DNA of 64,000 nucleotides from Planktothrix agardhii NIES-204. Its GTDB lineage: Bacteria > Cyanobacteriota > Cyanobacteriia > Cyanobacteriales > Microcoleaceae. Made by a program: the position numbers and the translations under genes. Each line of letters opens with the position of its first letter. The first letter of the stretch is position 1. Below are positions 9,715 through 27,505 of the stretch, in pieces. The notes under the pieces are model-generated. The model was not told where the DNA came from. It saw only the letters and a list, made by a program, of their open reading frames with translations, and did no database searches. Location: NCBI GenBank assembly GCA_003609755.1, contig AP017991.1, positions 3,645,001 to 3,709,000 of the forward strand, read 5' to 3'.

Positions 9715-11078
<1,364 letters not shown>

Positions 11079-11083
11079 ATTAC

Positions 11084-11148
11084 AGAAACCGGGTTTCTCA
11101 AGATATCTTGATTTCCTACAATGAATCTAATGCAGAAACTCGGTTTCT
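11084..11148. repeat. Two AGAAACC-GGTTTCT palindromes
   Basis: AGAAACCGGGTTTCT at 11084-11098 and AGAAACTCGGTTTCT at 11134-11148 flank a small AAGATATCTT palindrome. They lie between gap1 and the first CHAT gene, which converge here, and could serve as a bidirectional terminator or be interspersed repeats. Confidence 0.7.
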
Positions 11149-11172
11149 AGGAACAGAATGCAGGTTAACACT

Positions 11173-14100
11173 CTAACGCCAATCTCCCTGAACTGTAAAC
11201 GCTCCCCAATAATAGGGAGATTGCCATTCTTCAGACTTCCACATTTCCAATTGTGTCTGTCTCAAAGCATGAATTGGATTTTCTTCTCCTTGTAACATTT
11301 TTTGATAAAACTTCGTCATTAATTCAGAAGTTGAAGCATCATTAACACTCCACAAACTCACAATGACTCGCCGCGCTCCTGCATACATAAAACCACGAGT
11401 TAAACCTACCAGACCTTCCCCTTTCATCTCTTTTCCTACGCCAGTTTGGCAAGCACTCAATACTACTAATTCTGTCGGTAAATCTAAGTTAAAAATATTA
11501 CTTAACCGCAAAAATCCATCTTGCTTATTGCCTGTTTTATCATATAAAGATAGAACAATGCCTGATAATTCAGGATTGACAGGATCAAATAATCCATGAG
11601 TCGCAAAATGAACGATTTGATATTCAGCTAAATTCGGGTTAGTTGCGGTTGCTAAAGAAGCCTCAAAATCTAAGGCTTTTAGTCTTGCATTCTCCGGGAC
11701 TAATTGGGCAATATTTTCCGCTTCATATCGGCTATATTTTAACCGATCTAACTCGGAAGCTGTATTCCCTAATAATCCTGAATTTCTGGTAGCCCTATTT
11801 CTGGCTAAATCATTCTGGGTGGGGGGGTGATTTTCCGAGACAATTTGATTATTTAAGCGCTGGTCGTTTGATTCAAAAATTGGGTCAGCAATCACCGCAA
11901 CCGTTTTAGGTGCAGAAGGTCGATTTTGTAATTGTTGTCGTTGAATAGCAACTGTGGAGATAGAAGGAAGAGTAATAATTTCGTTTTCCACTAAGAGTGG
12001 ATTTTGGGGAGTATTGGGAATAGGTAATGCGGCAAAGGGAATCAATTGTAAAGCTCCATCTCCTACAATTAATAGGCGTTTTTTGGCTAATTGATTGGCT
12101 ACAGGAGAAAGAAGGATTTGACTCAGAGGAAGTCCGTCTTTTAGGGTAGCATTCTCGGTATTGAAAGACTGGAGGTAAGTTTCAACAGCCGTTTTGATTT
12201 CACTTTGTTTTGGAAGGATATAAGTGTTGATGCTATTTTTGCTGACTAACCAAAGAAAACTGCGTTCTTCCCCCAGGGAATATTGTAATAATAAGGTATC
12301 TTCATCAAGGAGTTGTTGAACTTCTGGCAGATTTAAAGGTTGAGGATATTTCAGTGCAGCATAGCGGGGACTGGTAAGGCGAATTTGGGTTTGTAGTTGA
12401 TTGAGTTGATTACTTAAGGCTTGAGATTTGGCTTTGAGTTCATCGATTTGTGTTTCGGTATATTGACCTTGGGTGAGTTGATATCGTTGATATTCTAAGG
12501 CGTTGAGTTGTTGTAGTAAGTTCTGTTCCTGTTCTAATAGTTTGGGGTCTACCCCTTGACGAATATTAGCACCGGCTTCGGTCAGGAGTTCTACAAGACT
12601 TCTGGCGCGAGAACGTTCGCTGGCGTGAAAAGCTAAAGCATCATATCCTTTTTGGGGGTTTTGTTGATGCAGTTGCATTAATAAATCAATGTAGAATTTG
12701 TAATAATCCTGAACTGTGGCAAAGAAGGATTGACGAAGTTCTTGGGAACCGATTTTAGTGCGGAGGTCTTCAACAATAGTAATGGCAGTTTCGATGTCTG
12801 TAAGAGCTTCGCTGAGGTTGCCTTGATTACGTTTGAGGTAAGCAAAATTAAAGAGAGTATTGGCTTCCCCCCCTCTATCCCCCACTGCCCGTAATAGGGG
12901 TAAAGCTTGGTTGTAGTAGTCTAGGGCTTGCTGCATTTCTCCCAGGGAGTCGTACACAGCGCCAATATTGCTGAGAGTAGTGGCTTCCCCCCTTCTATCC
13001 CCCACTACCCGTGATAGGGGTAAAGCTTGGTTGTAGTAGTCTAGGGCTTGCTGCATTTCTCCCAGGGAGTCGTACACAGCGCCAATATTGTTGAGAGTAG
13101 CAGCTTCCCCCCCTCTATCCCCCACTGCCCGTAATAGGGGTAAAGCTTGGTTGTAGTAGTCTAGGGCTTGCTGCGTTTCTCCCAGGGAGTCGTACACATT
13201 GCCAATATTGTTGAGAGTAGCAGCTTCCCCCCTTCTATCCCCCACAGCCCTGAATAGGGGTAAAGCTTGGTTGTAGTAGTCTAGGGCTTGCTGCTTTTCT
13301 CCCAGGGAGTTGTACACATTGCCAATATTGTTGAGAGTACCAGCTTCCTGCCCTCTATCCCCCACTGCCCGTGATAGGGGTAAAGCTTGGTTGTAGTAGT
13401 CTAGGGCTTGCTGCTTTTCTCCCAGGGAGTTGTACACATTGCCAATATTGTTGAGAGTACCAGCTTCCTGCCCTCTATCCCCCACTGCCCGTGATAGGGG
13501 TAAAGCTTGGTTGTAGTAGTCTAGGGCTTGCTGCTTTTCTCCCAGGGAGTTGTACACATAGCCAATATTGCTGAGAGTAGTGGCTTCCATCCTTCTATCC
13601 CCCACTGCCCGTAATAGGGGTAAAGCTTGGTTGTAGTAGTCTAGGGCTTGCTGCTTTTCTCCCAGGGAGTCGTACACAAGGCCAATACTGTTGAGAGTAG
13701 CAGCTTCCACCCTTCTATCCCCCACTGCCCGTGATAGGGGTAAAGCTTGGTTGTAGTAGTCTAGGGCTTGCTGCATTTCTCCCAGGGAGTTGTACACATT
13801 GCCAATATTGCTGAGAGTAGTGGCTTCCACCCTTCTATCCCCCACAGCCCGTAATAGGGGTAAAGCTTGGTTCAAGTAGTCTAGGGCTTGCTGCTTTTCT
13901 CCCAGGGAGTCGTACACACCGCCAATATTGTTGAGAGTAGTGGCTTCCCCCCTTCTATCCCCCACTGCCCGTGATAGGGGTAAAGCTTGGTTGTAGTAGT
14001 CTAGGGCTTGCTGCTTTTCTCCCAGGGAGTTGTACACAGCGCCAATATTGCTGAGAGTAGCAGCTTCCCCCCCTCTATCCCCCACTACCCGTCTTAGGGG

Positions 14101-14628
14101 TAAAGCTTGGTTGTAGTAGTCTAGGGCTTGCTGCTTTTCTCCCAGGGAGTCGTACACATAGCCAATATTGTTGAGAGTAGCAGCTTCCCCCCCTCTATCC
14201 CCCACTGCCCGTAATAGGGGTAAAGCTTGGTTGTAGTAGTCTAGGGCTTGCTGCTTTTCTCCTAAATTGTCATTTATTCTGCCCATACCCAGCAGTGTGA
14301 CGGCTTCCGTTCCTTTATCCCCGGCGGCGTGATAGAGTTGGCGGGCGGCTTGCCACTTTTCTAGGGCTTGTCGTAATGATTCTGCTGTTCCTTGTTGAAA
14401 TAGTTCCAAGCCCTCATTCAATAATCGATCAGCTTCTGAATTACTGCTATTTTGAGCAAGAATTACAGGATTTAAATGAGAATATTGTGATTGATCACGA
14501 AGTGTAATTCTGCCTGCGGCTATAGGATTTTTTAGCTGTGATGAGGTAGCGAGGACTGACTCCCCTAGCATCACGGATAAGGAAACTGCTGTTAATCCAA
14601 TTTTGATGAATTGCTGTGGTTTAATCAT
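11173..14628 (-). CDS. Secreted TPR-CHAT protease, copy 1 (12 repeats)
   Basis: About 1151 residues from the ATG at 14628-14626, preferred over an in-frame start 57 bases upstream because GAGG stands 7 bases before it and the peptide then opens with a signal sequence (MIKPQQFIKIGLTAVSLSVM, likely cleaved after SVLA). A degenerate first TPR is followed by 12 almost identical 40-residue units (LGEKQQALDYYNQALPL core, residues about 122-601), then a helical linker. The C-terminal CHAT domain has the catalytic pair His (HFATHG, about residue 1011) and Cys (SACQTG, about residue 1060). CHAT domains are caspase-like cysteine proteases, and TPRs normally sense a partner. It is last in a same-strand series of three copies; substrate unknown. 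Confidence 0.9.
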   Translation of the reverse strand: MIKPQQFIKIGLTAVSLSVMLGESVLATSSQLKNPIAAGRITLRDQSQYSHLNPVILAQNSSNSEADRLLNEGLELFQQGTAESLRQALEKWQAARQLYHAAGDKGTEAVTLLGMGRINDNLGEKQQALDYYNQALPLLRAVGDRGGEAATLNNIGYVYDSLGEKQQALDYYNQALPLRRVVGDRGGEAATLSNIGAVYNSLGEKQQALDYYNQALPLSRAVGDRRGEATTLNNIGGVYDSLGEKQQALDYLNQALPLLRAVGDRRVEATTLSNIGNVYNSLGEMQQALDYYNQALPLSRAVGDRRVEAATLNSIGLVYDSLGEKQQALDYYNQALPLLRAVGDRRMEATTLSNIGYVYNSLGEKQQALDYYNQALPLSRAVGDRGQEAGTLNNIGNVYNSLGEKQQALDYYNQALPLSRAVGDRGQEAGTLNNIGNVYNSLGEKQQALDYYNQALPLFRAVGDRRGEAATLNNIGNVYDSLGETQQALDYYNQALPLLRAVGDRGGEAATLNNIGAVYDSLGEMQQALDYYNQALPLSRVVGDRRGEATTLSNIGAVYDSLGEMQQALDYYNQALPLLRAVGDRGGEANTLFNFAYLKRNQGNLSEALTDIETAITIVEDLRTKIGSQELRQSFFATVQDYYKFYIDLLMQLHQQNPQKGYDALAFHASERSRARSLVELLTEAGANIRQGVDPKLLEQEQNLLQQLNALEYQRYQLTQGQYTETQIDELKAKSQALSNQLNQLQTQIRLTSPRYAALKYPQPLNLPEVQQLLDEDTLLLQYSLGEERSFLWLVSKNSINTYILPKQSEIKTAVETYLQSFNTENATLKDGLPLSQILLSPVANQLAKKRLLIVGDGALQLIPFAALPIPNTPQNPLLVENEIITLPSISTVAIQRQQLQNRPSAPKTVAVIADPIFESNDQRLNNQIVSENHPPTQNDLARNRATRNSGLLGNTASELDRLKYSRYEAENIAQLVPENARLKALDFEASLATATNPNLAEYQIVHFATHGLFDPVNPELSGIVLSLYDKTGNKQDGFLRLSNIFNLDLPTELVVLSACQTGVGKEMKGEGLVGLTRGFMYAGARRVIVSLWSVNDASTSELMTKFYQKMLQGEENPIHALRQTQLEMWKSEEWQSPYYWGAFTVQGDWR
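12826..14265 (-). repeat. 12 x 120-bp in-frame TPR-coding tandem repeat
   Basis: Twelve 120-bp units encode the 40-residue TPR modules of CHAT copy 1. They differ mainly at a few codons: the residue before RAV/RVV (S, L, R or F), the pair after GDR (RG, RV, RM, GG or GQ), the residue in IGxVY (N, L, G, A or Y) and D/N before the terminal S. Confidence 0.93.
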
Positions 14629-14742
14629 AAAAGCCTCATGGGAGTAGAGAAATGCAGTCACTTTAGTGCTGAGAAGAAACACCACACAGGGGAATTTACT
14701 CTTTTAAGGGTCAAGTCTCACCTATAAAAAATCAGAGTTCAA

Positions 14743-15028
14743 CCCCTAGAGGGTTAAAGTTTAACTCCAAAGGGTCAGGTTTTATCCCCTAGAGGGTTAA
14801 AGTTCAACTCCAAAGGGTCAGGTTTTATCCCCTAGACGGTTAAAGTTCAACTTCAAAGGGTCAGGTTTTATCCCCTAGACGGTTAAAGTTCAACTTCAAA
14901 GGGTCAGGTTTTATCCCCTAGGGGGTTAAAGTTCAACTCCAAAGGGTCAGGTTTTATCCCCTAGGGGGTTAAAGTTCAACTCCAAAGGGTCAGGTTTTAT
15001 CCCCTAGACGGTTAAAGTTCAACTCCAA
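14743..15028. repeat. 43-bp tandem repeat array, 7 units, upstream of CHAT copy 1
   Basis: Seven units of about 43 bp, the last truncated. Each contains GGTTAAAGTTCAACT(C/T)C, AAAGGGTCAGGTTTTATCCC and CTAG. The units contain small palindromes such as AAGTTCAACTT and, in some, CCCCTAGGGG. The array begins about 115 bp upstream of the CHAT start codon, so it may be in the leader or promoter of the gene. Confidence 0.9.
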
Positions 15029-15076
15029 TTTGTTTCACCAGTTCCATTGTTTTTTGTACAAAAGCCCGACTTTTAT
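15029..15076 (-). pseudogene. 48-bp fragment of the 166-residue gene, in spacer 1
   Basis: This stretch (TTTGTTTCACCAGTTCCATT onward) matches 22745-22792, the interior of the intact minus-strand 166-residue gene. It abuts the truncated last unit of the 43-bp array and marks a deletion junction left from duplication of the CHAT region. Confidence 0.88.
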
Positions 15077-15083
15077 ACAAGTC

Positions 15084-15104
15084 ATTCCGAGCGAAGCGAG
15101 GAAT
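15084..15104. repeat. Small interspersed hairpin
   Basis: ATTCC-GA-GC-GAA-GC-GA-GGAAT forms a short hairpin, a common bacterial interspersed motif. An identical copy lies at 18834-18854 in the next spacer. It sits just downstream of CHAT copy 2. Confidence 0.6.
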
Positions 15105-15162
15105 CTCTAAACGTTTACGAATCACTTAGAATTGCTTCACTATCTGATCAATTATCCATTGA

Positions 15163-18100
15163 TTAGCGCCAATCTCCCTGAACTGTAAACGCTCCCCAAT
15201 AATAGGGAGATTGCCATTCTTCAGACTTCCACATTTCCAATTGTGTCTGTCTCAAAGCATGAATTGGATTTTCTTCTCCTTGTAACATTTTTTGATAAAA
15301 CTTCGTCATTAATTCAGAAGTTGAAGCATCATTAACACTCCACAAACTCACAATGACTCGCCGCGCTCCTGCATACATAAAACCACGAGTTAAACCTACC
15401 AGACCTTCCCCTTTCATCTCTTTTCCTACGCCAGTTTGGCAAGCACTCAATACTACTAATTCGGTCGGTAAATCTAAGTTAAAAATATTACTTAACCGCA
15501 AAAATCCATCTTGCTTATTGCCTGTTTTATCATATAAAGATAGAACAATGCCTGATAATTCAGGATTGACAGGATCAAATAATCCATGAGTCGCAAAATG
15601 AACGATTTGATATTCAGCTAAATTCGGGTTAGTTGCGGTTGCTAAAGAAGCCTCAAAATCTAAGGCTTTTAGTCTTGCATTCTCCGGGACTAATTGGGCA
15701 ATATTTTCCGCTTCATCTCGGCTATATTTTAACCGATCTAACTCGGAAGCTGTATTCCCTAATAATCCTGAATTTCTGGTAGCCCTATTTCTGGCTAAAT
15801 CATTCTGGGTGGGGGGGTGATTTTCCGAGACAATTTGATTATTTAAGCGCGGGTCGTTTGATTCAAAAATTGGGTCAGCAATCACCGCAACCGTTTTAGG
15901 TGCAGAAGGTCGATTTTGTAATTGTTGTCGTTGAATAGCAACTGTGGAGATAGAAGGAAGAGTAATAATTTCGTTTTCCACTAAGAGTGGATTTTGGGGA
16001 GTATTGGGAATAGGTAATGCGGCAAAGGGAATCAATTGTAAAGCTCCATCTCCTACAATTAATAGGCGTTTTTTGGCTAATTGATTGGCTACAGGAGAAA
16101 GAAGGATTTGACTCAGAGGAAGTCCGTCTTTTAGGGTAGCATTCTCGGTATTGAAAGACTGGAGGTAAGTTTCAACAGCCGTTTTGATTTCACTTTGTTT
16201 TGGAAGGATATAAGTGTTGATGCTATTTTTGCTGACTAACCAAAGAAAACTGCGTTCTTCCCCCAGGGAATATTGTAATAATAAGGTATCTTCATCAAGG
16301 AGTTGTTGAACTTCTGGCAGATTTAAAGGTTGAGGATATTTCAGTGCAGCATAGCGGGGACTGGTAAGGCGAATTTGGGTTTGTAGTTGATTGAGTTGAT
16401 TACTGAAGGCTTGAGATTTGGCTTTGAGTTCATCGATTTGTGTTTCGGTATATTGACCTTGGGTGAGTTGATATCGTTGATATTCTAAGGCGTTGAGTTG
16501 TTGTAGTAAGTTCTGTTCCTGTTCTAAGAGTTTGGGGTCTACCCCTTGACGAATATTAGCACCGGCTTCGGTCAGGAGTTCTACCAGACTTCTGGCGCGA
16601 GAACGTTCGCTGGCGTGAAAAGCTAAAGCATCATATCCTTTTTGGGGGTTTTGTTGATGCAGTTGCATTAATAAATCAATGTAGAATTTGTAACCATCCT
16701 GAACTGTGGCAAAGAAGGATTGACGAAGTTCTTGGGAACCGATTTTAGTGCGGAGGTCTTCAACAATAGTACGGGCAGTTTCGATGTCTGTAAGAGCTTC
16801 GCTGAGGTTGCCTTGATTACGTTTGAGGTAAGCAAAATTAAAGAGAGTAGTGGCTTCCCCCCCTCTATCCCCCACAGCCCGTAATAGGGGTAAAGCTTGG
16901 TTGTAGTAGTCTAGGGCTTGCTGCTTTTCTCCCAGGGAGTCGTACACACCGCCAATATTATTGAGAGTAGTGGCTTCCCCCCTTCTATCCCCCACTGCCC
17001 GTGATAGGGGTAAAGCTTGGTTCAAGTAGTCTAGGGCTTGCTGCTTTTCTCCCAGGGAGGAGTACACATTGCCAATATTGTTGAGAGTAGTGGCTTCCAC
17101 CCTTCTATCCCCCACTGCCCGTGATAGGGGTAAAGCTTGGTTTAAGTAGTCTAGGGCTTTCTGCTTTTCTCCCAGGGAGTTGTACACATTGCCAATATTG
17201 TTGAGAGTAGCAGCTTCCACCCTTCTATCCCCCACTGCCCGTAATAGGGGTAAAGCTTGGTTGTAGTAGTCTAGGGCTTGCTGCTTTTCTCCCAAGGAGT
17301 CGTACACAGCGCCAATACTGTTGAGAGTAGCAGCTTCCACCCTTCTATCCCCCACAGCCCGTAATAGGGGTAAAGCTTGGTTCAAGTAGTCTAGGGCTTG
17401 CTGCTTTTCTCCCAGGGAGTCGTACACACCGCCAATATTATTGAGAGTAGTGGCTTCCCCCCTTCTATCCCCCACTGCCCGTGATAGGGGTAAAGCTTGG
17501 TTTAAGTAGTCTAGGGCTTTCTGCTTTTCTCCCAAGGAGTCGTACACAAGGCCAATACTGTTGAGAGTAGCAGCTTCCACCCTTCTATCCCCCACTGCCC
17601 GTGATAGGGGTAAAGCTTGGTTTAAGTAGTCTAGGGCTTTCTGCTTTTCTCCCAAGGAGTCGTACACAAGGCCAATACTGTTGAGAGTAGTGGCTTCCCC
17701 CCTTCTATCCCCCACAGCCCGTAATAGGGGTAAAGCTTGGTTCAAGTAGTCTAGGGCTTGCTGCATTTCTCCCAGGGAGTTGTACACATTGCCAATATTG
17801 CTGAGAGTAGTGGCTTCCATCCTTCTATCCCCCACAGCCCGTGATAGGGGTAAAGCTTGGTTGTAGTAGTCTAGGGCTTGCTGCTTTTCTCCCAGGGAGT
17901 CGTACACACCGCCAATATTATTGAGAGTAGCAGCTTCCATCCTTCTATCCCCCACTGCCCGTAATAGGGGTAAAGCTTGGTTGTAGTAGTCTAGGGCTTG
18001 CTGCTTTTCTCCTAAATCGTCATTTATTCTGCCCATACCCAGCAGTGTGACGGCTTCCGTTCCTTTATCCCCGGCGGCGTGATAGAGTTGGCGGGCGGCT

Positions 18101-18378
18101 TGCCACTTTTCTAGGGCTTGTCGTAATGATTCTGCTGTTCCTTGCTGAAATAGTTCCAAGCCCTCATTCAATAATCGATCAGCTTCTGAATTACTGCTAT
18201 TTTGAGCAAGAATTACAGGATTTAAATGAGAATATTGTGATTGATCACGAAGTGTAATTCTGCCTGCGGCTATAGGATTTTTTAGCTGTGATGAGGTAGC
18301 GAGGACTGACTCCCCTAGCATCACGGATAAGGAAACTGCTGTTAATCCAATTTTGATGAATTGCTGTGGTTTAATCAT
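15163..18378 (-). CDS. Secreted TPR-CHAT protease, copy 2 (10 repeats)
   Basis: About 1071 residues from the ATG at 18378-18376, with the same GAGG site and signal peptide as copy 1. It has ten 40-residue TPR units at residues about 122-521, several carrying the variants LGEKQKALDYLNQ and IGLVYDS. The linker and CHAT domain are almost identical to copy 1, and the catalytic His (HFATHG, about 931) and Cys (SACQTG, about 980) are intact. Only scattered substitutions separate the CHAT halves (for example YSRDEAEN against YSRYEAEN in copy 1), so the duplication is recent. It is flanked on both sides by repeat-array spacers, so each gene may have its own promoter. Function as for copy 1: presumed secreted or periplasmic cysteine protease. 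Confidence 0.9.
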   Translation of the reverse strand: MIKPQQFIKIGLTAVSLSVMLGESVLATSSQLKNPIAAGRITLRDQSQYSHLNPVILAQNSSNSEADRLLNEGLELFQQGTAESLRQALEKWQAARQLYHAAGDKGTEAVTLLGMGRINDDLGEKQQALDYYNQALPLLRAVGDRRMEAATLNNIGGVYDSLGEKQQALDYYNQALPLSRAVGDRRMEATTLSNIGNVYNSLGEMQQALDYLNQALPLLRAVGDRRGEATTLNSIGLVYDSLGEKQKALDYLNQALPLSRAVGDRRVEAATLNSIGLVYDSLGEKQKALDYLNQALPLSRAVGDRRGEATTLNNIGGVYDSLGEKQQALDYLNQALPLLRAVGDRRVEAATLNSIGAVYDSLGEKQQALDYYNQALPLLRAVGDRRVEAATLNNIGNVYNSLGEKQKALDYLNQALPLSRAVGDRRVEATTLNNIGNVYSSLGEKQQALDYLNQALPLSRAVGDRRGEATTLNNIGGVYDSLGEKQQALDYYNQALPLLRAVGDRGGEATTLFNFAYLKRNQGNLSEALTDIETARTIVEDLRTKIGSQELRQSFFATVQDGYKFYIDLLMQLHQQNPQKGYDALAFHASERSRARSLVELLTEAGANIRQGVDPKLLEQEQNLLQQLNALEYQRYQLTQGQYTETQIDELKAKSQAFSNQLNQLQTQIRLTSPRYAALKYPQPLNLPEVQQLLDEDTLLLQYSLGEERSFLWLVSKNSINTYILPKQSEIKTAVETYLQSFNTENATLKDGLPLSQILLSPVANQLAKKRLLIVGDGALQLIPFAALPIPNTPQNPLLVENEIITLPSISTVAIQRQQLQNRPSAPKTVAVIADPIFESNDPRLNNQIVSENHPPTQNDLARNRATRNSGLLGNTASELDRLKYSRDEAENIAQLVPENARLKALDFEASLATATNPNLAEYQIVHFATHGLFDPVNPELSGIVLSLYDKTGNKQDGFLRLSNIFNLDLPTELVVLSACQTGVGKEMKGEGLVGLTRGFMYAGARRVIVSLWSVNDASTSELMTKFYQKMLQGEENPIHALRQTQLEMWKSEEWQSPYYWGAFTVQGDWR
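16816..18015 (-). repeat. 10 x 120-bp in-frame TPR-coding tandem repeat
   Basis: Ten 120-bp units encode the TPR region of CHAT copy 2. Units 4-7 correspond exactly in protein sequence to units 4-7 of copy 3, showing shared descent or gene conversion. Confidence 0.92.
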
Positions 18379-18492
18379 AAAAGCCTCATGGGAGTAGAGA
18401 AATGCAGTCACTTTAGTGCTGAGAAGAAACACCACACAGGGGAATTTACTCTTTTAAGGGTCAAGTCTCACCTATAAAAAATCAGAGTTCAA

Positions 18493-18778
18493 CCCCTAGA
18501 CGGTTAAAGTTCAACTTCAAAGGGTCAGGTTTTATCCCCTAGACGGTTAAAGTTCAACTTCAAAGGGTCAGGTTTTATCCCCTAGGGGGTTAAAGTTCAA
18601 CTCCAAAGGGTCAGGTTTTATCCCCTAGGGGGTTAAAGTTCAACTCCAAAGGGTCAGGTTTTATCCCCTAGACGGTTAAAGTTCAACTCCAAAGGGTCAG
18701 GTTTTATCCCCTAGGGGGTTAAAGTTCAACTCCAAAGGGTCAGGTTTTATCCCCTAGACGGTTAAAGTTCAACTCCAA
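18493..18778. repeat. 43-bp tandem repeat array, 7 units, upstream of CHAT copy 2
   Basis: It has the same unit, unit count and total length (286 bp) as the array at 14743, including the same truncated last unit. The order of variant units (CTAGACGG, CTAGGGGG) differs from the other arrays. Confidence 0.9.
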
Positions 18779-18826
18779 TTTGTTTCACCAGTTCCATTGT
18801 TTTTTGTACAAAAGCCCGACTTTTAT
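18779..18826 (-). pseudogene. 48-bp fragment of the 166-residue gene, in spacer 2
   Basis: Identical to the fragment in spacer 1 and matching 22745-22792. The same junction in both spacers means the deletion preceded one of the two duplications. Confidence 0.88.
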
Positions 18827-18912
18827 ACAAGTCATTCCGAGCGAAGCGAGGAATCTCTAAACGTTTACGAATCACTTAGAATTGCTTCACTATCTGATCA
18901 ATTATCCATTGA

Positions 18913-21900
18913 TTAGCGCCAATCTCCCTGAACTGTAAACGCTCCCCAATAATAGGGAGATTGCCATTCTTCAGACTTCCACATTTCCAATTGTGTCTGT
19001 CTCAAAGCATGAATTGGATTTTCTTCTCCTTGTAACATTTTTTGATAAAACTTCGTCATTAATTCAGAAGTTGAAGCATCATTAACACTCCACAAACTCA
19101 CAATGACTCGCCGCGCTCCTGCATACATAAAACCACGAGTTAAACCTACCAGACCTTCCCCTTTCATCTCTTTTCCTACGCCAGTTTGGCAAGCACTCAA
19201 TACTACTAATTCGGTCGGTAAATCTAAGTTAAAAATATTACTTAACCGCAAAAATCCATCTTGCTTATTGCCTGTTTTATCATATAAAGATAGAACAATG
19301 CCTGATAATTCAGGATTGACAGGATCAAATAATCCATGAGTCGCAAAATGAACGATTTGATATTCAGCTAAATTCGGGTTAGTTGCGGTTGCTAAAGAAG
19401 CCTCAAAATCTAAGGCTTTTAGTCTTGCATTCTCCGGGACTAATTGGGCAATATTTTCCGCTTCATCTCGGCTATATTTTAACCGATCTAACTCGGAAGC
19501 TGTATTCCCTAATAATCCTGAATTTCTGGTAGCCCTATTTCTGGCTAAATCATTCTGGGTGGGGGGGTGATTTTCCGAGACAATTTGATTATTTAAGCGC
19601 TGGTCGTTTGATTCAAAAATTGGGTCAGCAATCACCGCAACCGTTTTAGGTGCAGAAGGTCGATTTTGTAATTGTTCTCGTTGAATAGCAACTGTGGAGA
19701 TAGAAGGAAGAGTAATAATTTCGTTTTCCACTAAGAGTGGATTTTGGGGAGTATTGGGAATAGGTAATGCGGCAAAGGGAATCAATTGTAAAGCTCCATC
19801 TCCTACAATTAATAGGCGTTTTTTGGCTAATTGATTGGCTACAGGAGAAAGAAGGATTTGACTCAGAGGAAGTCCGTCTTTTAGGGTAGCATTCTCGGTA
19901 TTGAAAGACTGGAGGTAAGTTTCAACAGCCGTTTTGATTTCACTTTGTTTTGGAAGGATATAAGTGTTGATGCTATTTTTGCTGACTAACCAAAGAAAAC
20001 TGCGTTCTTCCCCCAGGGAATATTGTAATAATAAGGTATCTTCATCAAGGAGTTGTTGAACTTCTGGCAGATTTAAAGGTTGAGGATATTTCAGTGCAGC
20101 ATAGCGGGGACTGGTAAGGCGAATTTGGGTTTGTAGTTGATTGAGTTGATTACTGAAGGCTTGAGATTTGGCTTTGAGTTCATCGATTTGTGTTTCGGTA
20201 TATTGACCTTGGGTGAGTTGATATCGTTGATATTCTAAGGCGTTGAGTTGTTGTAGTAAGTTCTGTTCCTGTTCTAAGAGTTTGGGGTCTACCCCTTGAC
20301 GAATATTAGCACCGGCTTCGGTCAGGAGTTCTACCAGACTTCTGGCGCGAGAACGTTCGCTGGCGTGAAAAGCTAAAGCATCATATCCTTTTTGGGGGTT
20401 TTGTTGATGCAGTTGCATTAATAAATCAATGTAGAATTTGTAACCATCCTGAACTGTGGCAAAGAAGGATTGACGAAGTTCTTGGGAACCGATTTTAGTG
20501 CGGAGGTCTTCAACAATAGTACGGGCAGTTTCGATGTCTGTAAGAGCTTCGCTGAGGTTGCCTTGATTACGTTTGAGGTAAGCAAAATTAAAGAGAGTAG
20601 TGGCTTCCCCCCCTCTATCCCCCACAGCCCGTAATAGGGGTAAAGCTTGGTTGTAGTAGTCTAGGGCTTGCTGCTTTTCTCCCAGGGAGTCGTACACACC
20701 GCCAATATTATTGAGAGTAGTGGCTTCCCCCCTTCTATCCCCCACTGCCCGTGATAGGGGTAAAGCTTGGTTTAAGTAGTCTAGGGCTTTCTGCTTTTCT
20801 CCCAGGGAGTTGTACACATTGCCAATATTGTTGAGAGTAGCAGCTTCCACCCTTCTATCCCCCACTGCCCGTAATAGGGGTAAAGCTTGGTTGTAGTAGT
20901 CTAGGGCTTGCTGCTTTTCTCCCAAGGAGTCGTACACAGCGCCAATACTGTTGAGAGTAGCAGCTTCCACCCTTCTATCCCCCACAGCCCGTAATAGGGG
21001 TAAAGCTTGGTTCAAGTAGTCTAGGGCTTGCTGCTTTTCTCCCAGGGAGTCGTACACACCGCCAATATTATTGAGAGTAGTGGCTTCCCCCCTTCTATCC
21101 CCCACTGCCCGTGATAGGGGTAAAGCTTGGTTTAAGTAGTCTAGGGCTTTCTGCTTTTCTCCCAAGGAGTCGTACACAAGGCCAATACTGTTGAGAGTAG
21201 CAGCTTCCACCCTTCTATCCCCCACTGCCCGTGATAGGGGTAAAGCTTGGTTTAAGTAGTCTAGGGCTTTCTGCTTTTCTCCCAGGGAGTCGTACACAAG
21301 GCCAATATTGTTGAGAGTAGTGGCTTCCCCCCCTCTATCCCCCACTGCCCGTCTTAGGGGTAAAGCTTGGTTGTAGTAGTCTAGGGCTTGCTGCTTTTCT
21401 CCCAGGGAGTCGTACACAAGGCCAATATTGTTGAGAGTAGTGGCTTCCCCCCCTCTATCCCCCACTGCCCGTCTTAGGGGTAAAGCTTGGTTGTAGTAGT
21501 CTAGGGCTTTCTGCTTTTCTCCCAAGGAGTCGTACACAAGGCCAATATTGTTGAGAGTAGTGGCTTCCATCCTTCTATCCCCCACTGCCCGTAATAGGGG
21601 TAAAGCTTGGTTGTAGTAGTCTAGGGCTTTCTGCTTTTCTCCTAATAAGTCATTTATTGTGCCCATACCCAGCAGTGTGACGGCTTCCGTTCCTTTATCC
21701 CCGGCGGCGTGATAGAGTTGGCGGGCGGCTTCTAACTTTTCTAAAGCGGCTCGTAATGATTCTGCTGTTCCTTGCTGAAATAGTTCCAAGCCCTCATTCA
21801 ATAATCGATCAGCTTCTGAATTACTGCTATTTTGAGCAAGAATTACAGGATTTAAATGAGAATATTGTGATTGATCACGAAGTGTAATTCTGCCTGCGGC

Positions 21901-22008
21901 TATAGGATTTTTTAGCTGTGATGAGGTAGCGAGGACTGACTCCCCTAGCATCACGGATAAGGAAACTGCTGTTAATCCAATTTTGATGAATTGCTGTGGT
22001 TTAATCAT
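18913..22008 (-). CDS. Secreted TPR-CHAT protease, copy 3 (9 repeats)
   Basis: About 1031 residues from the ATG at 22008-22006, with the same ribosome-binding site and signal peptide as the other copies. It has nine TPR units (residues about 122-481) and a CHAT domain with His in HFATHG (about 891) and Cys in SACQTG (about 940). The pre-TPR segment differs from the other two copies (AALEKLEAARQ instead of QALEKWQAARQ). It is the first CHAT gene downstream of the orthocaspase and 166-residue genes on the same strand; its upstream array ends 8 bp from the stop of the 166-residue gene. This looks like the ancestral arrangement. It may be co-transcribed with those genes or driven from the array region. 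Confidence 0.9.
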   Translation of the reverse strand: MIKPQQFIKIGLTAVSLSVMLGESVLATSSQLKNPIAAGRITLRDQSQYSHLNPVILAQNSSNSEADRLLNEGLELFQQGTAESLRAALEKLEAARQLYHAAGDKGTEAVTLLGMGTINDLLGEKQKALDYYNQALPLLRAVGDRRMEATTLNNIGLVYDSLGEKQKALDYYNQALPLRRAVGDRGGEATTLNNIGLVYDSLGEKQQALDYYNQALPLRRAVGDRGGEATTLNNIGLVYDSLGEKQKALDYLNQALPLSRAVGDRRVEAATLNSIGLVYDSLGEKQKALDYLNQALPLSRAVGDRRGEATTLNNIGGVYDSLGEKQQALDYLNQALPLLRAVGDRRVEAATLNSIGAVYDSLGEKQQALDYYNQALPLLRAVGDRRVEAATLNNIGNVYNSLGEKQKALDYLNQALPLSRAVGDRRGEATTLNNIGGVYDSLGEKQQALDYYNQALPLLRAVGDRGGEATTLFNFAYLKRNQGNLSEALTDIETARTIVEDLRTKIGSQELRQSFFATVQDGYKFYIDLLMQLHQQNPQKGYDALAFHASERSRARSLVELLTEAGANIRQGVDPKLLEQEQNLLQQLNALEYQRYQLTQGQYTETQIDELKAKSQAFSNQLNQLQTQIRLTSPRYAALKYPQPLNLPEVQQLLDEDTLLLQYSLGEERSFLWLVSKNSINTYILPKQSEIKTAVETYLQSFNTENATLKDGLPLSQILLSPVANQLAKKRLLIVGDGALQLIPFAALPIPNTPQNPLLVENEIITLPSISTVAIQREQLQNRPSAPKTVAVIADPIFESNDQRLNNQIVSENHPPTQNDLARNRATRNSGLLGNTASELDRLKYSRDEAENIAQLVPENARLKALDFEASLATATNPNLAEYQIVHFATHGLFDPVNPELSGIVLSLYDKTGNKQDGFLRLSNIFNLDLPTELVVLSACQTGVGKEMKGEGLVGLTRGFMYAGARRVIVSLWSVNDASTSELMTKFYQKMLQGEENPIHALRQTQLEMWKSEEWQSPYYWGAFTVQGDWR
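20566..21645 (-). repeat. 9 x 120-bp in-frame TPR-coding tandem repeat
   Basis: Nine 120-bp units encode the TPR region of CHAT copy 3. The first three units (RRMEATT and RGGEATT variants with IGLVYDS) are specific to this copy; later ones are shared with copy 2. Confidence 0.92.
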
Positions 22009-22122
22009 AAAAGCCTCATGGGAGTAGAGAAATGCAGTCACTTTAGTGCTGAGAAGAAACACCACACAGGGGAATTTACTCTTTTAAGGGTCAAGTCTCA
22101 CCTATAAAAAATCAGAGTTCAA

Positions 22123-22425
22123 CCCCTAGAGGGTTAAAGTTTAACTCCAAAGGGTCAGGTTTTATCCCCTAGACGGTTAAAGTTTAACTCCAAAGGGTCA
22201 GGTTTTATCCCCTAGACGGTTAAAGTTCAACTTCAAAGGGTCAGGTTTTATCCCCTAGAGGGTTAAAGTTCAACTTCAAAGGGTCAGGTTTTATCCCCTA
22301 GGGGGTTAAAGTTCAACTCCAAAGGGTCAGGTTTTATCCCCTAGGGGGTTAAAGTTCAACTTCAAAGGGTCAGGTTTTATCCCCTAGGGGGTTAAAGTTC
22401 AACTCCAAAGGGTCAGGTTTTATCC
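22123..22425. repeat. 43-bp tandem repeat array, 7 units, upstream of CHAT copy 3
   Basis: Seven units, the last one complete here, running up to 8 bp from the stop codon of the 166-residue gene. This is the untruncated version of the array seen in the other two spacers. Confidence 0.9.
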
Positions 22426-22433
22426 TCAAAGCA

Positions 22434-22934
22434 TCAAGGGAGATTCTTTGACGCTGGGTTAGTCCCTTCGGTGGGTTCAGCAACAGCTTTATTAGATTTG
22501 CGGGCGAAGCGACGACCAATATTATCCAGCACCCCATCCAGACCCGCCCCTAAATTCGCTTCTTTGGCGTAGCGATAAGCTACGAGGGCGGCGGCGTAGG
22601 CTTCACTACCCACGACCATTAGGGTGTCTTCTACGAGTTCATTGAGTTGGTGCAAAGATAGCAATACAGGATAAAGATCGTTATACAGTTCCACATCCTT
22701 TTCCATTTCCTCAATATCAAAAGAACGCGGTAAAAAGTCCTGGTTTTGTTTCACCAGTTCCATTGTTTTTTGTACAAAAGCCCGACTTTTATCTCCGAGT
22801 TTCAGCATGGAAATCCGCTCCTCTTTCGTCAAACCGACTAGGAAAGGGAGCTTTTCTTTGATAGTGAGAATTGCTGCCTGGATAGCGGCAACATCTTCGG
22901 GCGTTAAGTTAGCACTAATGCGGTTATCGGTCAT
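22434..22934 (-). CDS. 166-residue soluble helical protein, unknown, in CHAT/orthocaspase cluster
   Basis: A 166-residue protein I cannot assign to a family. It is mostly helical by composition (TPEDVAAIQAAILTIKEKLP, later SLHQLNELVEDTLMVVGSEA) with a polar C-terminal tail. There is no signal peptide. A strong AAAGGAG stands about 8 bases before the ATG at 22934-22932, so it is probably well translated. It lies between the orthocaspase gene (89 bases upstream) and CHAT copy 3, all on the minus strand. Pieces of it (48 bp) remain in both CHAT spacers, showing that it was part of the duplicated unit. A role as partner or regulator of the proteases is inferred from position only. Confidence 0.7.
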   Translation of the reverse strand: MTDNRISANLTPEDVAAIQAAILTIKEKLPFLVGLTKEERISMLKLGDKSRAFVQKTMELVKQNQDFLPRSFDIEEMEKDVELYNDLYPVLLSLHQLNELVEDTLMVVGSEAYAAALVAYRYAKEANLGAGLDGVLDNIGRRFARKSNKAVAEPTEGTNPASKNLP

Positions 22935-23023
22935 GGCTGTTCTCCTTTAAAAATGGGTGAAAAAGAAAAATAACTGTAGGGGTGGCGTCCCTCCCAACTC
23001 TCTTAACGGCTATAGCACCAACC

Positions 23024-24217
23024 CTAAATACTCAACCGCAACAGTGTACCTTCTGTTACTGGTTTCTCAATTTTTGCCTGTGCAACGATCCCCTCCCGTG
23101 ACAAAACTCTCACCTGTCCGTTACCCTTAACCGCCGTAAAAACTGTTTTCGTTTCTACCTTTGACAAATCAACTCCCCCTAACCATAATTGCGCCGTATC
23201 CCCATTAACTTTTGTCACCACTGCCTGTGCCGTCGAATTAGGAGAATTAATAAAATATATAGGTTTCTCCTGATCTTGAGTCCCTGGCTTAACTTCATAA
23301 CCGGGTTTTTGCTTGAATTTTTTGGGAATTTCTGACACAATCTTGGTAAACAGCCGATCAATCTTCTGATCTTCCCGCCAGAGATAATGGGTCAGTAAAT
23401 AAGTAAATATTCCCGATTTAAAACCATTAATATTAACTTCTAGCGCCAATTGTTCAGGAGCAGTTGCAGCTAAGACGACACCTTTAGCAACGCCCGTGCG
23501 ATATCCTTTAACAAATTGTTCTGGTGACATATTTAACCGTGATAACCACTGTTGCTGATAAGTTTTTTCGTCAGAAGAAACTAAAACCTTTTTGCCTCCA
23601 TCACGAGAACGTATCCGTGAGTCTCTAGTCGCACCCCCAGAAAAACAACTATCTAATACAACGGTGACATTCTCTGTTTTGAGGGCAGACATCAGCAAAA
23701 ATAAAGTATGTCCCATGATATCTTCCACAGTCCCTCCAACGTCAGGATATCCAGCAGGTAAGTTACTATTTACTGGTACAAAGGTTCCATTTAATCCTTC
23801 CTGATTGGGCACCACAACAATCGGGTTAGGGTCAAAAATTTGCGAACCATGCCCAGAATAGTGATAGAATACTACATCTCCGGGTTTTGCTTGTTTAATT
23901 AAATGTTCTTCAAATGCCGTTAAAATTCCTGTTCGCGTCGCTGCTTCATCAGCTAAAACCAGAATATCTTTCGGGTTAAATCTAAAGCGATGAATCAGTA
24001 GATTCCGTTGCAACTCTAAATCATTGACACATCCTTCTAGGGGAGAGGAGGCATATTGATTAATCCCTACTAATAAAGCTAGTTTGCGGGGCGTACTTTG
24101 GGCTAGGACTTTGCCCGCTTGTTCAGCTTTTTGTTGGAATAGGAATTGATTAATTCCCAGAGTTGCTAGTGCTGAACTGGCAAATTTGAGGAAATGACGA
24201 CGAGTATTACGAGTCAT
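23024..24217 (-). CDS. Tat-exported orthocaspase (C14 caspase-like protease)
   Basis: 397 residues. The N-terminus NTRRHFLKFASSALATLGI is a twin-arginine signal with an RR-x-FLK core. The caspase fold follows: RKLALLVGINQYASSPLEGC, the catalytic His in HYSGHGS (residue 123) and the catalytic Cys in LDSCFSGGATR (residue 191), so the dyad is intact. The C-terminal ~180 residues contain the p10-like part and a beta-rich tail. Orthocaspases cleave after basic residues and have been linked to stress and cell-death responses in cyanobacteria. It lies directly upstream of the 166-residue gene and the three TPR-CHAT genes. A deleted paralogue lies at 25119-25969. Confidence 0.92.
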   Translation of the reverse strand: MTRNTRRHFLKFASSALATLGINQFLFQQKAEQAGKVLAQSTPRKLALLVGINQYASSPLEGCVNDLELQRNLLIHRFRFNPKDILVLADEAATRTGILTAFEEHLIKQAKPGDVVFYHYSGHGSQIFDPNPIVVVPNQEGLNGTFVPVNSNLPAGYPDVGGTVEDIMGHTLFLLMSALKTENVTVVLDSCFSGGATRDSRIRSRDGGKKVLVSSDEKTYQQQWLSRLNMSPEQFVKGYRTGVAKGVVLAATAPEQLALEVNINGFKSGIFTYLLTHYLWREDQKIDRLFTKIVSEIPKKFKQKPGYEVKPGTQDQEKPIYFINSPNSTAQAVVTKVNGDTAQLWLGGVDLSKVETKTVFTAVKGNGQVRVLSREGIVAQAKIEKPVTEGTLLRLSI

Positions 24218-24278
24218 TTTAACTTACAATGAATCAACTGAATCAATTGTAGCAATTCAGAGGAGCTAATTTTAGGAA

Positions 24279-24674
24279 TCAATATGAGATCGTTACCGTA
24301 TTCGGAGCAAAAAGAAGTGGCAATATTCCTCCCTCTTGTCCAAGCACAACACCTTCAATAAGATCCTCCTGAGTTAAGCCGGCTTTGCGAGAGCAATTGG
24401 GACAAGCAATCACTGTTCCCCCATCCTCTATAAACTTTTGTAACCTTTGATGAATCGTTAAATCACCATTACCTTCTGTTGCTGGAGATCGCCGTTTATC
24501 AGCCAGATATACCCCACGAACATTAAGGAAGATGGTGACAGGTTGATGTCCCATTCGCAAGGCATTGTGGGCAATAGAAATCGCCATACTTGCCGTCCAT
24601 GTATCATCACTGGTCAAATTGATAAACAGTGCTTTTGATAGCGAGGTCAAATAAATCAGGTTGACCGTAAGCAA
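24279..24674 (-). CDS. DsrE-like protein with start borrowed from a deleted doc gene
   Basis: From about residue 14 the protein is a normal DsrE/DsrF-like sequence (SKALFINLTSDDTWTASMAI, with a conserved-looking VIACPNCSRKAG that holds two Cys). The first ~13 residues (MLTVNLIYLTSLS) are the doc sequence read in another frame. A deletion removed the natural DsrE start and the 3' end of doc, and joined the two. The ATG at 24674 lies inside doc, so translation of DsrE is possible but altered. DsrE-family proteins handle sulfur relay or are of unknown function. Expression would depend on the upstream TA promoter. Confidence 0.7.
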   Translation of the reverse strand: MLTVNLIYLTSLSKALFINLTSDDTWTASMAISIAHNALRMGHQPVTIFLNVRGVYLADKRRSPATEGNGDLTIHQRLQKFIEDGGTVIACPNCSRKAGLTQEDLIEGVVLGQEGGILPLLFAPNTVTISY

Positions 24675-24810
24675 ATAAATGTCTTGGTCTAGCTAAACTC
24701 GCAGCCAGGAGATTTTCGTCCCTGATACCTAAACTACCACCATGCTGCTGAATTTGATCCTGATGGATAACTCGAACAATTTCTTCAAAAATCCATAAGG
24801 GTTCATTCAC
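24607..24810 (-). pseudogene. doc: Doc/Fic-type toxin, truncated by deletion
   Basis: 67 residues remain. IHQDQIQQHGGSLGIRDENL and SLARPRHLFAYGQPDLFDLA are the N-terminal half of a Doc (death-on-curing) toxin. After LFDLA the frame runs into DsrE DNA. The catalytic Fic motif HPFxDGNKR, which should follow within about 25 residues, is absent. The ATG overlaps the stop of the antitoxin-like gene by 4 bases (24807-24810), the usual TA arrangement. Without the Fic motif it cannot phosphorylate EF-Tu as Doc does. Confidence 0.8.
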
Positions 24811-25031
24811 TGGGCTAATTCCCTTAACGCATTTTTATATTTTTCGCTAATCACTTGATAAGCTGCCATTGCTTTGTCAAATTCAGTTTGATCAATAGTT
24901 GAGGAATTATCGGAGTGATTATTCTGTGCTTTCTCTGCGAGAGAATGCAAAAAGACCAGAGCTTCTGCTAACAGTTCATCAGGTAATTCTCTGGCTAAGG
25001 TAACGATTTCTTGACGCATTTCTTGAGTCAT
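24807..25031 (-). CDS. Antitoxin-like protein paired with truncated Doc
   Basis: A 74-residue acidic helical protein (MTQEMRQEIVTLARELPDEL; QVISEKYKNALRELAQ). Its stop overlaps the doc start by 4 bases, so by position it is the antitoxin of a Phd/Doc-like pair. The N-terminal part resembles small cyanobacterial antitoxins more than classical Phd, so the assignment rests mainly on context. With the toxin broken, it is probably a leftover. Confidence 0.6.
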   Translation of the reverse strand: MTQEMRQEIVTLARELPDELLAEALVFLHSLAEKAQNNHSDNSSTIDQTEFDKAMAAYQVISEKYKNALRELAQ

Positions 25032-25118
25032 GGTTATTGCCTATTATATTTTAAATGATAACAAAAGACATCTGATCACGGCTTGACCCGGTTTTTTTCT
25101 AACATATTAATATTCCTC

Positions 25119-25969
25119 TTAACTTATTAAATGTAAAAGCGTTCCTCCGGTTACGGTTTGCTCAATCTTTGCCTGCCCTACTAACCCATCACGGGAAATC
25201 ATTTTCACTTTTCCTGTACTATTAATAGCAGTAAATATTGTTCCCGTTGTCACCTTTCTTAAGTCAATTCCCGCTAACCATAATTGAGCAGTTTCCCCTG
25301 TTGCTGATAGTTTTTTTCATCAGAAGAAACTAAAATATTTTCACCTCCTTCGCGGGAACGCACCCGGAATTCTCGGGTTGCTCCACCGGAAAAACAACTA
25401 TCTAAAACCACCGTCACATTGTCGGTTTTCAGGGCTGACATTAATAAAAACAAGGTATGCCCCATAATATCTTGGACAACTCCCCCAACTTCAGGATATC
25501 CGGTGGGTAAGTTACTATTAATAGGAACAAAGGTTCCATTTAATCCTTGTCTATCTCCTAATCGGGTTATAATTGGGTCAGGATCAAAAATCCGAGAACC
25601 ATGCCCAGAATAGTGATAAACCACAATATCTCCGGGTTTAGCTTGTTTGATTAAATGTTCTTCAAAGGCGGTTAAAATTCCTGTCCGAGTGGCTTCTGTT
25701 TGGGGTAAAATATAAATATTTTTAGGATTAAATCCGAAGCGATGAATTAACAAATAGCGTTGTAAATCTATATCGTTGATACATCCTTCTAGGGGAGAGG
25801 AGGCATATTGATTAATCCCTACTAATAAAGCTAGTTTGCGGGGCGTACTTTGGGCTAGGACTTTGCCCGCTTGTTCAGCTTTTTGTCGGAATAGGAATTG
25901 ATTAATTCCCAGAGTTGCTAGTGCTGAACTGGCAAATTTGAGGAAATAGCGGCGAGTGTTACGAGTCAT
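25119..25969 (-). pseudogene. Second orthocaspase, internal deletion and frameshift
   Basis: The first ~225 residues are a close copy of the orthocaspase at 23024, with RR-x-FLK Tat signal, HYSGHGS and LDSCFSGGATR all present. After NYQQQ a deletion of roughly 120 codons joins the DNA to the C-terminal tail in another frame, giving GKLLNYG and a stop at 25274. The displaced C-terminus (TAQLWLAGIDLRKV, then TVTGGTLLHLIS) is readable to the TAA at 25119-25121. The truncated 231-residue product would keep the catalytic dyad but lose the p10-like part, so residual activity is conceivable yet unlikely. Confidence 0.85.
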
Positions 25970-26415
25970 GGTATACAGCCTTATCGTACTACAGGTTAAG
26001 TTATTTTTGAAGGGGGTTACTTAACATTATAGTCTTTGCTAATATTAGATAACCCAGGGGATAGGTTACAGTTGATCAACATCCATCTTGCAAAAATAGA
26101 CTTTTTAGCTTGACCGACGGGAATCCTCACACCATACCGCTTAGGTTGGTGTGGGATGAAAGGCGCGATCTGCTGAGGATTCCATCTCTTCGCAATCTCA
26201 AAGCTATGCTTTGAGCAGTGGGCAGATGGATGACGAGACGAACAAAAAATTTTTTTAATTGTTCGATCATTTGTGATAAAGTAACACTAATTGAGGCATA
26301 AGCTGTTCAGCATCTAAATTGGTCATGCAGAAATCTTGAATCTTATGCAGTGCGAGCGTCCTCGCTCGCTGGAATATACAGTTTAAATGCACAACAGCTT
26401 ATTAGTCACAACTCA
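25970..26415. other. Gene-free left flank of the tnpB element, with hairpins
   Basis: No gene seen. Hairpins: CACACCA at 26128-26134 with TGGTGTG at 26147-26153, and CTCAAAGC at 26197-26204 with GCTTTGAG at 26208-26215, the latter nested in a larger CCATCT/AGATGG pairing. A GCGAGCG/CGCTCGC inverted repeat lies near 26352-26368. The first hairpin resembles subterminal hairpins of IS200/IS605 elements, so the left end of the element is probably here, but I cannot fix the exact boundary. Confidence 0.5.
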
Positions 26416-27434: not shown

Positions 27435-27472
27435 TCTGTACTCAGATTTGATGTGGGAGTATGTCACTCAAT
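27423..27472 (+). mobile_element. Right end of the tnpB element (IS200/IS605-type)
   Basis: CCCACATCA at 27423-27431 pairs with TGATGTGGG at 27449-27457, followed by AGTATGTCAC, the hairpin-plus-TCAC/TCAA arrangement of IS200/IS605 right ends. In active elements the guide RNA of TnpB would be encoded across this end. Confidence 0.7.
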
Positions 27473-27505
27473 ATTGAAGATATTACCTTTGTTAATATTC
27501 TATCC

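Follow-up and report, generated by a model that had tools for sequence, protein, structure and literature searches.

Layout of the locus

A 64,000-nucleotide stretch of the Planktothrix agardhii NIES-204 genome (contig AP017991.1, positions 3,645,001 to 3,709,000), referred to here as the window, carries on its minus strand an orthocaspase gene, a gene for a small protein designated P166, and three tandem genes for proteins that combine TPR units with a CHAT protease domain. Orthocaspases and CHAT proteases have long been discussed as cyanobacterial death proteases, and we know of few partners for either. In the direction of transcription the order is a truncated orthocaspase (OC1), a small putative antitoxin, a Doc-like remnant overlapping a DsrE-like open reading frame (ORF), the orthocaspase OC2, P166, array 1, CHAT C, array 2, CHAT B, array 3, and CHAT A. 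The locus is flanked on one side by a GAPDH gene (10035-11078), which closes the CHAT block, and on the other by a TnpB-like gene split into two ORFs. The central features, in order of transcription, are:

23024..24217, minus strand: OC2, orthocaspase of 397 aa with Peptidase_C14 domain, twin-arginine (Tat) N terminus, and H123/C191 (ORF list, Pfam, TAT model, motif check)
22434..22934, minus strand: P166, small protein, predicted all-helical, first gene of the P166-array module, unmatched by any family model above cut-off (family, sequence, and fold searches)
22123..22425, minus strand: array 1, 7.0 copies of a 43-bp unit, immediately behind P166 and ahead of CHAT copy C (repeat analysis)
18913..22065, minus strand: TPR-CHAT copy C, 1050 aa as listed, 120-bp TPR units x 8.8, likely start an inner ATG near 22008 (ORF list, Pfam)
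18779..18826, minus strand: 48-bp fragment of the P166 gene (source 22745-22792), putative scar of tandem duplication (by-eye reading)
18493..18778, minus strand: array 2, 6.7 copies of the 43-bp unit, ahead of CHAT copy B (repeat analysis)
15163..18435, minus strand: TPR-CHAT copy B, 1090 aa, TPR units x 9.8 (ORF list, Pfam)
15029..15076, minus strand: 48-bp P166 gene fragment, same scar as at 18779..18826 (by-eye reading, spacers aligned side by side)
14743..15028, minus strand: array 3, 6.7 copies of the 43-bp unit, ahead of CHAT copy A (repeat analysis)
11173..14685, minus strand: TPR-CHAT copy A, 1170 aa with 11.7 TPR units, adjoining GAPDH (ORF list, Pfam)

A first-pass annotation, made from the sequence without database searches, had placed OC2, P166, and the three CHAT genes in this order and at these coordinates, all on the minus strand. 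This arrangement was found as described, and no other listed ORF of at least 80 aa interrupts the run. The identification of the proteases also held. OC2 matches Peptidase_C14 (E 1.3e-22) with the dyad motifs HYSGHG (H123) and DSCFSGG (C191) intact, and its N terminus scores 17.6 bits with the TAT signal model, just above the cut-off of 16.7. All three CHAT proteins match PF12770 (E ~1e-67) and TPR families and retain both the HFATHG and SACQTG motifs. The frames of OC2 and the three CHAT genes are open, and translation of CHAT probably begins at the ATG of MIKPQQF, 19 codons downstream of the listed GTG. The first-pass annotation lacked the 43-bp tandem array before every CHAT gene, the 48-bp P166 fragment in both CHAT-CHAT spacers, and the second, truncated orthocaspase at 25119-25969. 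The whole genome (5.08 Mb) has 14 CHAT and 8 C14 matches, a background against which chance colocation can be judged.

Orthocaspase and TPR-CHAT genes as a conserved pair

Gene neighborhoods show orthocaspase and TPR-CHAT as a conserved pair, encoded side by side across cyanobacteria. Stretches with flanks of up to about 9 kb per side were fetched around relatives of OC2 and scored for CHAT genes. The relatives comprised 18 single-domain orthocaspases from outside the genus (46-68% identity) and 13 longer ones (722-762 aa, near 50% identity), and 20 other Tat-orthocaspases (33-40% identity) served as the control. A CHAT gene lay in the flank of 25 of the 31 relatives, compared with none of the 20 controls. 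In the single-domain set CHAT was found in 15 of 18 flanks, on the same strand as the scored orthocaspase; at one locus (L208) the scored gene was the longer (755 aa) neighbor of the single-domain one, and its CHATs were distant (30-31% identity). Two of the three misses were a contig end (L198) and a 5-kb contig (L206). In the longer set CHAT was present in 10 of 13 flanks, and the nearest one was on the same strand in 9 of these 10. The pair thus recurs in several cyanobacterial families; its genes almost always share a strand, either one can come first, and CHATs are at times in tandem.

Several observations temper this linkage. The third single-domain miss, L204, has complete flanks and no CHAT. 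Five of the 10 longer orthocaspases with a CHAT have only a distant one (26-36% identity), and in one of the 10 the CHAT is on the opposite strand. Furthermore, the 20 controls come from one family whereas the pair set spans several, so the contrast could be partly phylogenetic.

The proposal that two exported caspase-clan proteases are encoded together was borne out as linkage, and the N termini are consistent with export. RR-type N termini were present in all 17 orthocaspases of the first set in which the N terminus was available, in 13 of 13 longer relatives, and in all 20 controls; 14 of 18, 13 of 13, and 20 of 20 also passed a hydrophobicity threshold. Because the controls are equally RR-type, the Tat signal is not special to CHAT-paired orthocaspases. 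The CHAT partners of more than 40% identity had a hydrophobic N terminus in 12 of 14 and 3 of 5 cases; one of the exceptions is cut by a contig end (L195), and the others have no start in the stretch examined (L194, L213, and L221).

The hallmark of orthocaspases is Arg/Lys-specific proteolysis, and the conserved exported pair supplies a direct candidate for an orthocaspase substrate or activator. One protease may act on the other in a cascade, as the first-pass annotation had suggested. In the passages available, the cyanobacterial orthocaspases surveyed in PMC8283722 share with OC2 the C14 domain, the His/Cys dyad, and the RR-type N terminus, and the words "operon" and "gene cluster" are absent from the main text of that source; the conserved pairing with an exported TPR-CHAT gene is the feature added here. 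The open-licence PMC papers searched include none that describes the pair.

Other CHAT proteases are the TPR-CHAT of type III-E CRISPR (Csx29) and the gasdermin-activating CHAT proteases. The window proteins share with these the TPR plus CHAT, or CHAT protease, architecture and differ in having a signal-peptide-like N terminus and an orthocaspase partner. The absence of a gRAMP (Cas7-11) gene was upheld, in that all ORFs of more than 400 aa among the 13 of at least 80 aa at 8-28 kb encode TPR-CHAT proteins (8 of the 13 scanned with Pfam). No gasdermin match was found in the 8 of these 13 ORFs that were scanned.

Distribution and identity of P166

P166 has a different distribution from the protease pair. 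Among 59 related genomes it occurs in its own genome only, whereas OC-CHAT is common in those genomes. It was found in 20 of 386 genomes drawn from the phylum, its own included, and 15 of these 20 belong to one family of the same order. Each of the 20 has up to 7 matches, some of them broken. An earlier single-sequence scan gave no further relatives; an alignment-based pattern scan gave 338, and the best 80 were analyzed. Among these 80, most are from Nostocales, judging by record titles, and one is in an Acidobacteria metagenome-assembled genome, on a 188-kb contig (L137) that carries both P166 (58-59% identity) and a 21-nt array and might reflect interphylum transfer or a binning error. A homologue of 43% identity is present on the Candidatus Thiodictyon plasmid pTs417 (L010), between the genes for pyruvoyl-dependent arginine decarboxylase and pyruvate kinase, with no array detected.

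The first-pass annotation had treated P166 as a third partner of the proteases and had proposed a test of whether the three genes co-occur in cyanobacterial genomes. The pair recurs, and P166 does not follow it: BLAST with the window proteins (E < 1e-8, up to 8 kb per side) found no CHAT or close orthocaspase in any of the 80 P166 loci. A set of 20 loci, partly overlapping the 80, gave no CHAT and one orthocaspase (36% identity, ~8 kb away), and at L185 a more distant caspase domain lies behind P166. These neighborhoods argue that P166 belongs to a separate module rather than to the OC-CHAT pair.

The predicted structure of P166 is all-helical (pLDDT 81.6, pTM 0.63), and no export signal is visible by eye. 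Assignment to a known family was rejected, as searches of Pfam, NCBIfam, PHROGs, PADLOC, and the PDB by sequence and by fold gave nothing reliable (best fold E 0.74). Searches with 17 family members gave just weak, scattered matches, and for the window P166 no Pfam model exceeded its cut-off.

A tandem array behind P166

P166 genes are generally followed by a tandem array. Arrays were counted in 76 of the 80 loci, the 4 with less than 300 nt behind P166 being excluded, and had to start within 600 nt; in 8 of the 80 loci the end of P166 was taken at a later stop because the BLAST match had run past the first one. A downstream array was present in 67 of the 76 loci, always with a period divisible by 21 nt. 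Upstream of P166, 7 of 78 loci had an array of any period. Among 1357 background windows of 600 nt, 236 contained some array, and in 72 there was one whose period was divisible by 21. One locus scored without an array, L143, has one with similar words that starts before the P166 end used. When P166 was clustered at 90% identity, arrays were present in 31 of 38 clusters. Two further arrays (L108 and L161) lie apart from the P166 through which their locus was retrieved, each with a P166-like fragment beside it; these fragments are possibly decaying copies of the module.

Autocorrelation downstream of P166 has peaks at 21, 42, 63, and 84, a trough at lags 10-11, and shoulders at 7 and 14. Of 81 flanks, 57 had a lag-21 array whose limits could be set (24 dropped; the window not included), and these served for motif and coding analysis; 56 were folded, one more being dropped for length. 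The arrays share a degenerate 21-mer (14.9 bits, versus 4.3 in shuffled columns) with dyads at positions 2 and 12.5, 10.5 bp apart. Paired positions vary among units yet stay matched, and the pair 8-17 is Watson-Crick in 38 of 48 distinct units versus 14.3 expected. A coding role (21 nt being 7 codons) was rejected, as 20 of the 57 arrays lack an open frame in the sense direction, the codon-phase mismatch falls below its null, and the window unit is 43 bp.

The P166-sense strand folds better than the antisense strand in 42 of 56 arrays (mean z -1.72 versus +0.34), and z is below -2 for 23 sense and 6 antisense strands. In 12 related arrays of one motif group a predicted 72-pair structure holds in 95.9% of cells, compared with 30-61% when slid by 1-3 columns. 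No Rfam family was found at the arrays in 9 loci (136 kb, gathering threshold; two hits elsewhere), and the window at 11000-27500 gave no Rfam match up to E 1. A match to the NsiR1 small RNA at L114 (14373-14423, minus strand) lies ~6 kb from P166 and not at the array.

Genes behind the P166-array

The gene behind the array was assessed in 71 of the 80 loci, 9 with less than 1200 nt being excluded. A next gene of at least 200 aa on the same strand and within 1.5 kb was present in 39 of the 71, and 28 of these 39 encode STAND NTPases, which are bacterial kin of NLR immune receptors. These 28 include 10 with a GQGGVGK-type P-loop and 11 in an NNH3-NACHT cluster, as well as NB-ARC (L110), NB-ARC-TPR (L126, L146, and L161), nSTAND1-WD40 (L181), and caspase-nSTAND1-WD40 (L185) proteins; the call at L184 is a weak AAA_16 match, below the Pfam cut-off. 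The calls rest on Pfam in 9 cases, the P-loop in 10, and BLAST cluster membership with NNH3-NACHT genes in 9. The remaining same-strand next genes encode 4 TPR proteins, 2 proteins with a Type ISP restriction domain, and 5 other or unnamed products.

The strict P-loop pattern undercounts STAND (10 of 39), hence the addition of Pfam, and it nevertheless separates next genes (10 of 39) from genes before P166 (0 of 67), background ORFs (10 of 307), and next genes on the opposite strand or farther off (1 of 29). No STAND gene was found among the 25 commonest of the 74 families of genes before P166. With P166 clustered at 90% identity, STAND follows in 17 of 25 clusters. At L121 a STAND ORF opens with 71 residues that resemble the N-terminal half of P166, and in seven loci (L110, L144, L157, L180, L184, L186, and L187) a second array of the same motif lies behind the large gene, which is thus bracketed by arrays. 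None of the 8 window proteins scanned with Pfam is a STAND NTPase. The window matches the pattern in that P166, an array, and a large TPR-bearing gene follow each other on one strand.

Across these loci P166 is accompanied in cis by an array of dyad-symmetric 21-nt units (43 bp in the window), and a large putative effector gene often comes next on the same strand, usually STAND elsewhere and TPR-CHAT here. These neighbors point to control of immune-type effectors, which would operate via RNA, DNA binding, or recombination alone.

The open-licence PMC papers searched include none that describes a P166-array. In the STAND conflict systems of multicellular bacteria, as presented in the passages available from PMC7159879 and PMC8195603, caspase-type effectors belong to STAND-centered systems; P166-arrays precede genes of this kind (STAND, NACHT, and NB-ARC, some with TPR or WD40). 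The term "tandem repeat" is absent from the main texts of these two sources, and the passages mention no P166-like gene or array. NsiR1, as described in the part of PMC9045159 available, is a tandem small RNA array of ~60-nt units upstream of hetF with its own promoter per copy and so shares with the window a tandem array ahead of a cyanobacterial CHAT-family protease gene. It differs in that the unit here is 21 or 43 nt and that RF02399 was not matched at 11000-27500 up to E 1.

Type III toxin-antitoxin systems consist of ToxI RNA repeats and a ToxN endoribonuclease encoded behind the repeat array. What the two have in common is a gene for a small protein accompanied in cis by an array of structured repeats. 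P166 differs from ToxN in that it precedes the array, is predicted to be all-helical, and has no Pfam match above cut-off, which places it outside that class.

Triplication of the CHAT gene

The first-pass annotation described a multiplied, repeat-variable CHAT family. There are three copies, and TPR number varies among them, but the multiplication is recent, and a genome of the same species (G295) has one CHAT at the locus. The three copies are 99.2-99.9% identical over the last 1700 nt, and the length differences (1170, 1090, and 1050 aa) are whole 40-aa TPR units. By this comparison the copies are recent tandem duplicates, not three different proteases. The 43-bp array was copied along with each CHAT, and a two-unit array query matched only the three window arrays in the genome. 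The 48-bp P166 scrap, read by eye, is identical in both CHAT-CHAT spacers, which suggests that P166 was already before CHAT at the first duplication. Tandem CHATs are also found elsewhere (L188, L190, and L193).

Upstream of OC2 are three further features:

25119..25969, minus strand: OC1, a truncated orthocaspase that lacks ~343 bp internally compared with the G295 gene (ORF list, comparison with G295)
24607..25031, minus strand: ORFs that we take to be a small antitoxin (74 aa) and a Doc-like toxin remnant; the same pair lies near CHAT and orthocaspase in several relatives (locus comparison)
24279..24674, minus strand: DsrE-like ORF overlapping the Doc-like remnant, a rearrangement point (Pfam scan, locus comparison)

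At the G295 locus there is one CHAT, the Doc-like plus antitoxin pair, and a full-length orthocaspase, without P166. CHAT and orthocaspase also occur in G002, G003 (away from GAPDH), G005 (split over contigs), G006, and G007, and neither CHAT nor a full-length orthocaspase is present at this locus in G001, G004, and G008. OC1 is the G295 gene (97-99.5% identity) minus ~343 bp, and OC2 with DsrE is a diverged copy (84.7%). The locus is thus polymorphic and rearranging.

Proposed function and alternative explanations

The reading that we favor, to which we give about even weight, is that two modules are superimposed: an exported OC-CHAT protease pair, and a P166-array inserted between its genes, with CHAT then amplified together with the array. 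Orthocaspase and TPR-CHAT would act in sequence outside the cytoplasm, with the TPR array of the CHAT protein as the variable recognition part, and either one protease would activate the other or both would share a substrate. The most likely role of such a pair would be stress- or invader-triggered self-digestion. The P166-array module would have entered between orthocaspase and CHAT. A duplication with one end inside P166 would have produced a unit of array, CHAT, and P166 scrap, and unequal crossing-over, for which the array may double as homology, would have raised the array plus CHAT unit to three copies.

For the second module we suggest, tentatively and at somewhat less than an even chance, that P166 and its 21-nt-phased hairpin array represent an undescribed class of RNA-protein control module, mobile among multicellular cyanobacteria and set before NLR-like STAND genes and, here, a caspase-clan protease gene. 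The array would be transcribed and form hairpins and, with P166, set the output of the downstream gene. Effectors would stay off until a trigger is sensed by the hairpin RNA or by P166, and the arrays would also drive change in effector copy number. P166-arrays provide a second, independent handle, namely, a protein without a model in the searched libraries and an array without an Rfam family in the searched loci, with a strong tie to STAND. If the array is an RNA controlling STAND genes, it would show how multicellular bacteria quiet dangerous immune effectors, and the window would hold the same module captured by a protease gene and then amplified.

A number of results weigh against this proposal. 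The P166 loci are related; at 80% identity they form 9 clusters, with arrays in 6 of 8 assessable and STAND in the majority in 2 of 4, and at 70% identity arrays are present in 2 of 4 clusters. A same-strand next gene within 1.5 kb is missing in 32 of 71 loci. Covariation in the 12-array set is modest, with 13 double-changed cells versus 7.9 in shuffles (6 of 500 as high) and 6 pairs with a double change versus 5.1 (191 of 500), and on two measures the 72-pair structure showed no excess over shuffles. P166 has an acidic core (median -5; tail +4), which does not readily suggest RNA binding. The window unit of 43 is neither 42 nor 21, and the two strands of the window array fold equally well (sense -107.1 and antisense -104.0 kcal/mol; z -4.7 and -4.8 versus dinucleotide shuffles, and just -1.3 to -1.5 under column permutation), so that the RNA reading rests on the family and not on the window copy.

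This last result would also be expected if the arrays work at the DNA level only, as phased sites for a dimeric protein, perhaps P166, or as recombination sites. Twenty-one nucleotides are two helical turns, the dyads are 10.5 bp apart, the arrays were coamplified with CHAT, and in the seven bracketed loci they also lie behind the large gene. The sense-strand folding bias is not what this alternative predicts, G-U pairs exceed A-C pairs in the consensus structure (by our own reading, of a structure predicted for that strand), and pure helical phasing does not predict the trough at lags 10-11 or the shoulders at 7 and 14. We regard a DNA-level role as a serious possibility that is still doubtful. 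A neutral history, in which CHAT amplification and P166 insertion reflect chance, repeat-driven recombination in a decaying accessory locus with no joint function, seems rather unlikely to us: the locus holds a truncated OC1, joined remnants of Doc-like and DsrE-like frames, and a TnpB gene split into two ORFs, and three genomes lack CHAT and an intact orthocaspase here, but all three CHAT frames are open with intact motifs, and both the OC-CHAT and the P166-array links recur in other lineages.

That orthocaspase, P166, and TPR-CHAT form a single three-part exported protease cascade is improbable. The genes are contiguous and co-oriented, OC-CHAT linkage is widespread, and P166 precedes a caspase-nSTAND1-WD40 gene at L185; set against this are the confinement of P166 to one of 59 related genomes in which OC-CHAT is common, the lack of CHAT or close orthocaspase by BLAST in 80 P166 loci, and the lack of an export signal to the eye. 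Least probable by far is an assembly artefact. The copies are nearly identical and repeat-rich, as a misassembly might be, but they differ in TPR number (11.7, 9.8, and 8.8) and in array variants, the assembly is in 5 contigs and 99.99% complete, and tandem CHATs are not confined to this genome.

Other features of the neighborhood

The Doc-like/antitoxin pair lies near orthocaspase and CHAT in the genus, and among 10 loci from other genera of the family, 7 (L190 and L192-L197) have the Doc-like part near them; the pair may belong to the protease module or act simply as a stabilizer. GAPDH is near a P166-array in three other loci (L070, L164, and L172), possibly as a shared landing site or by chance. 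The first part of the TnpB-like gene (26350-27434) is beside the same genes in G295 too.

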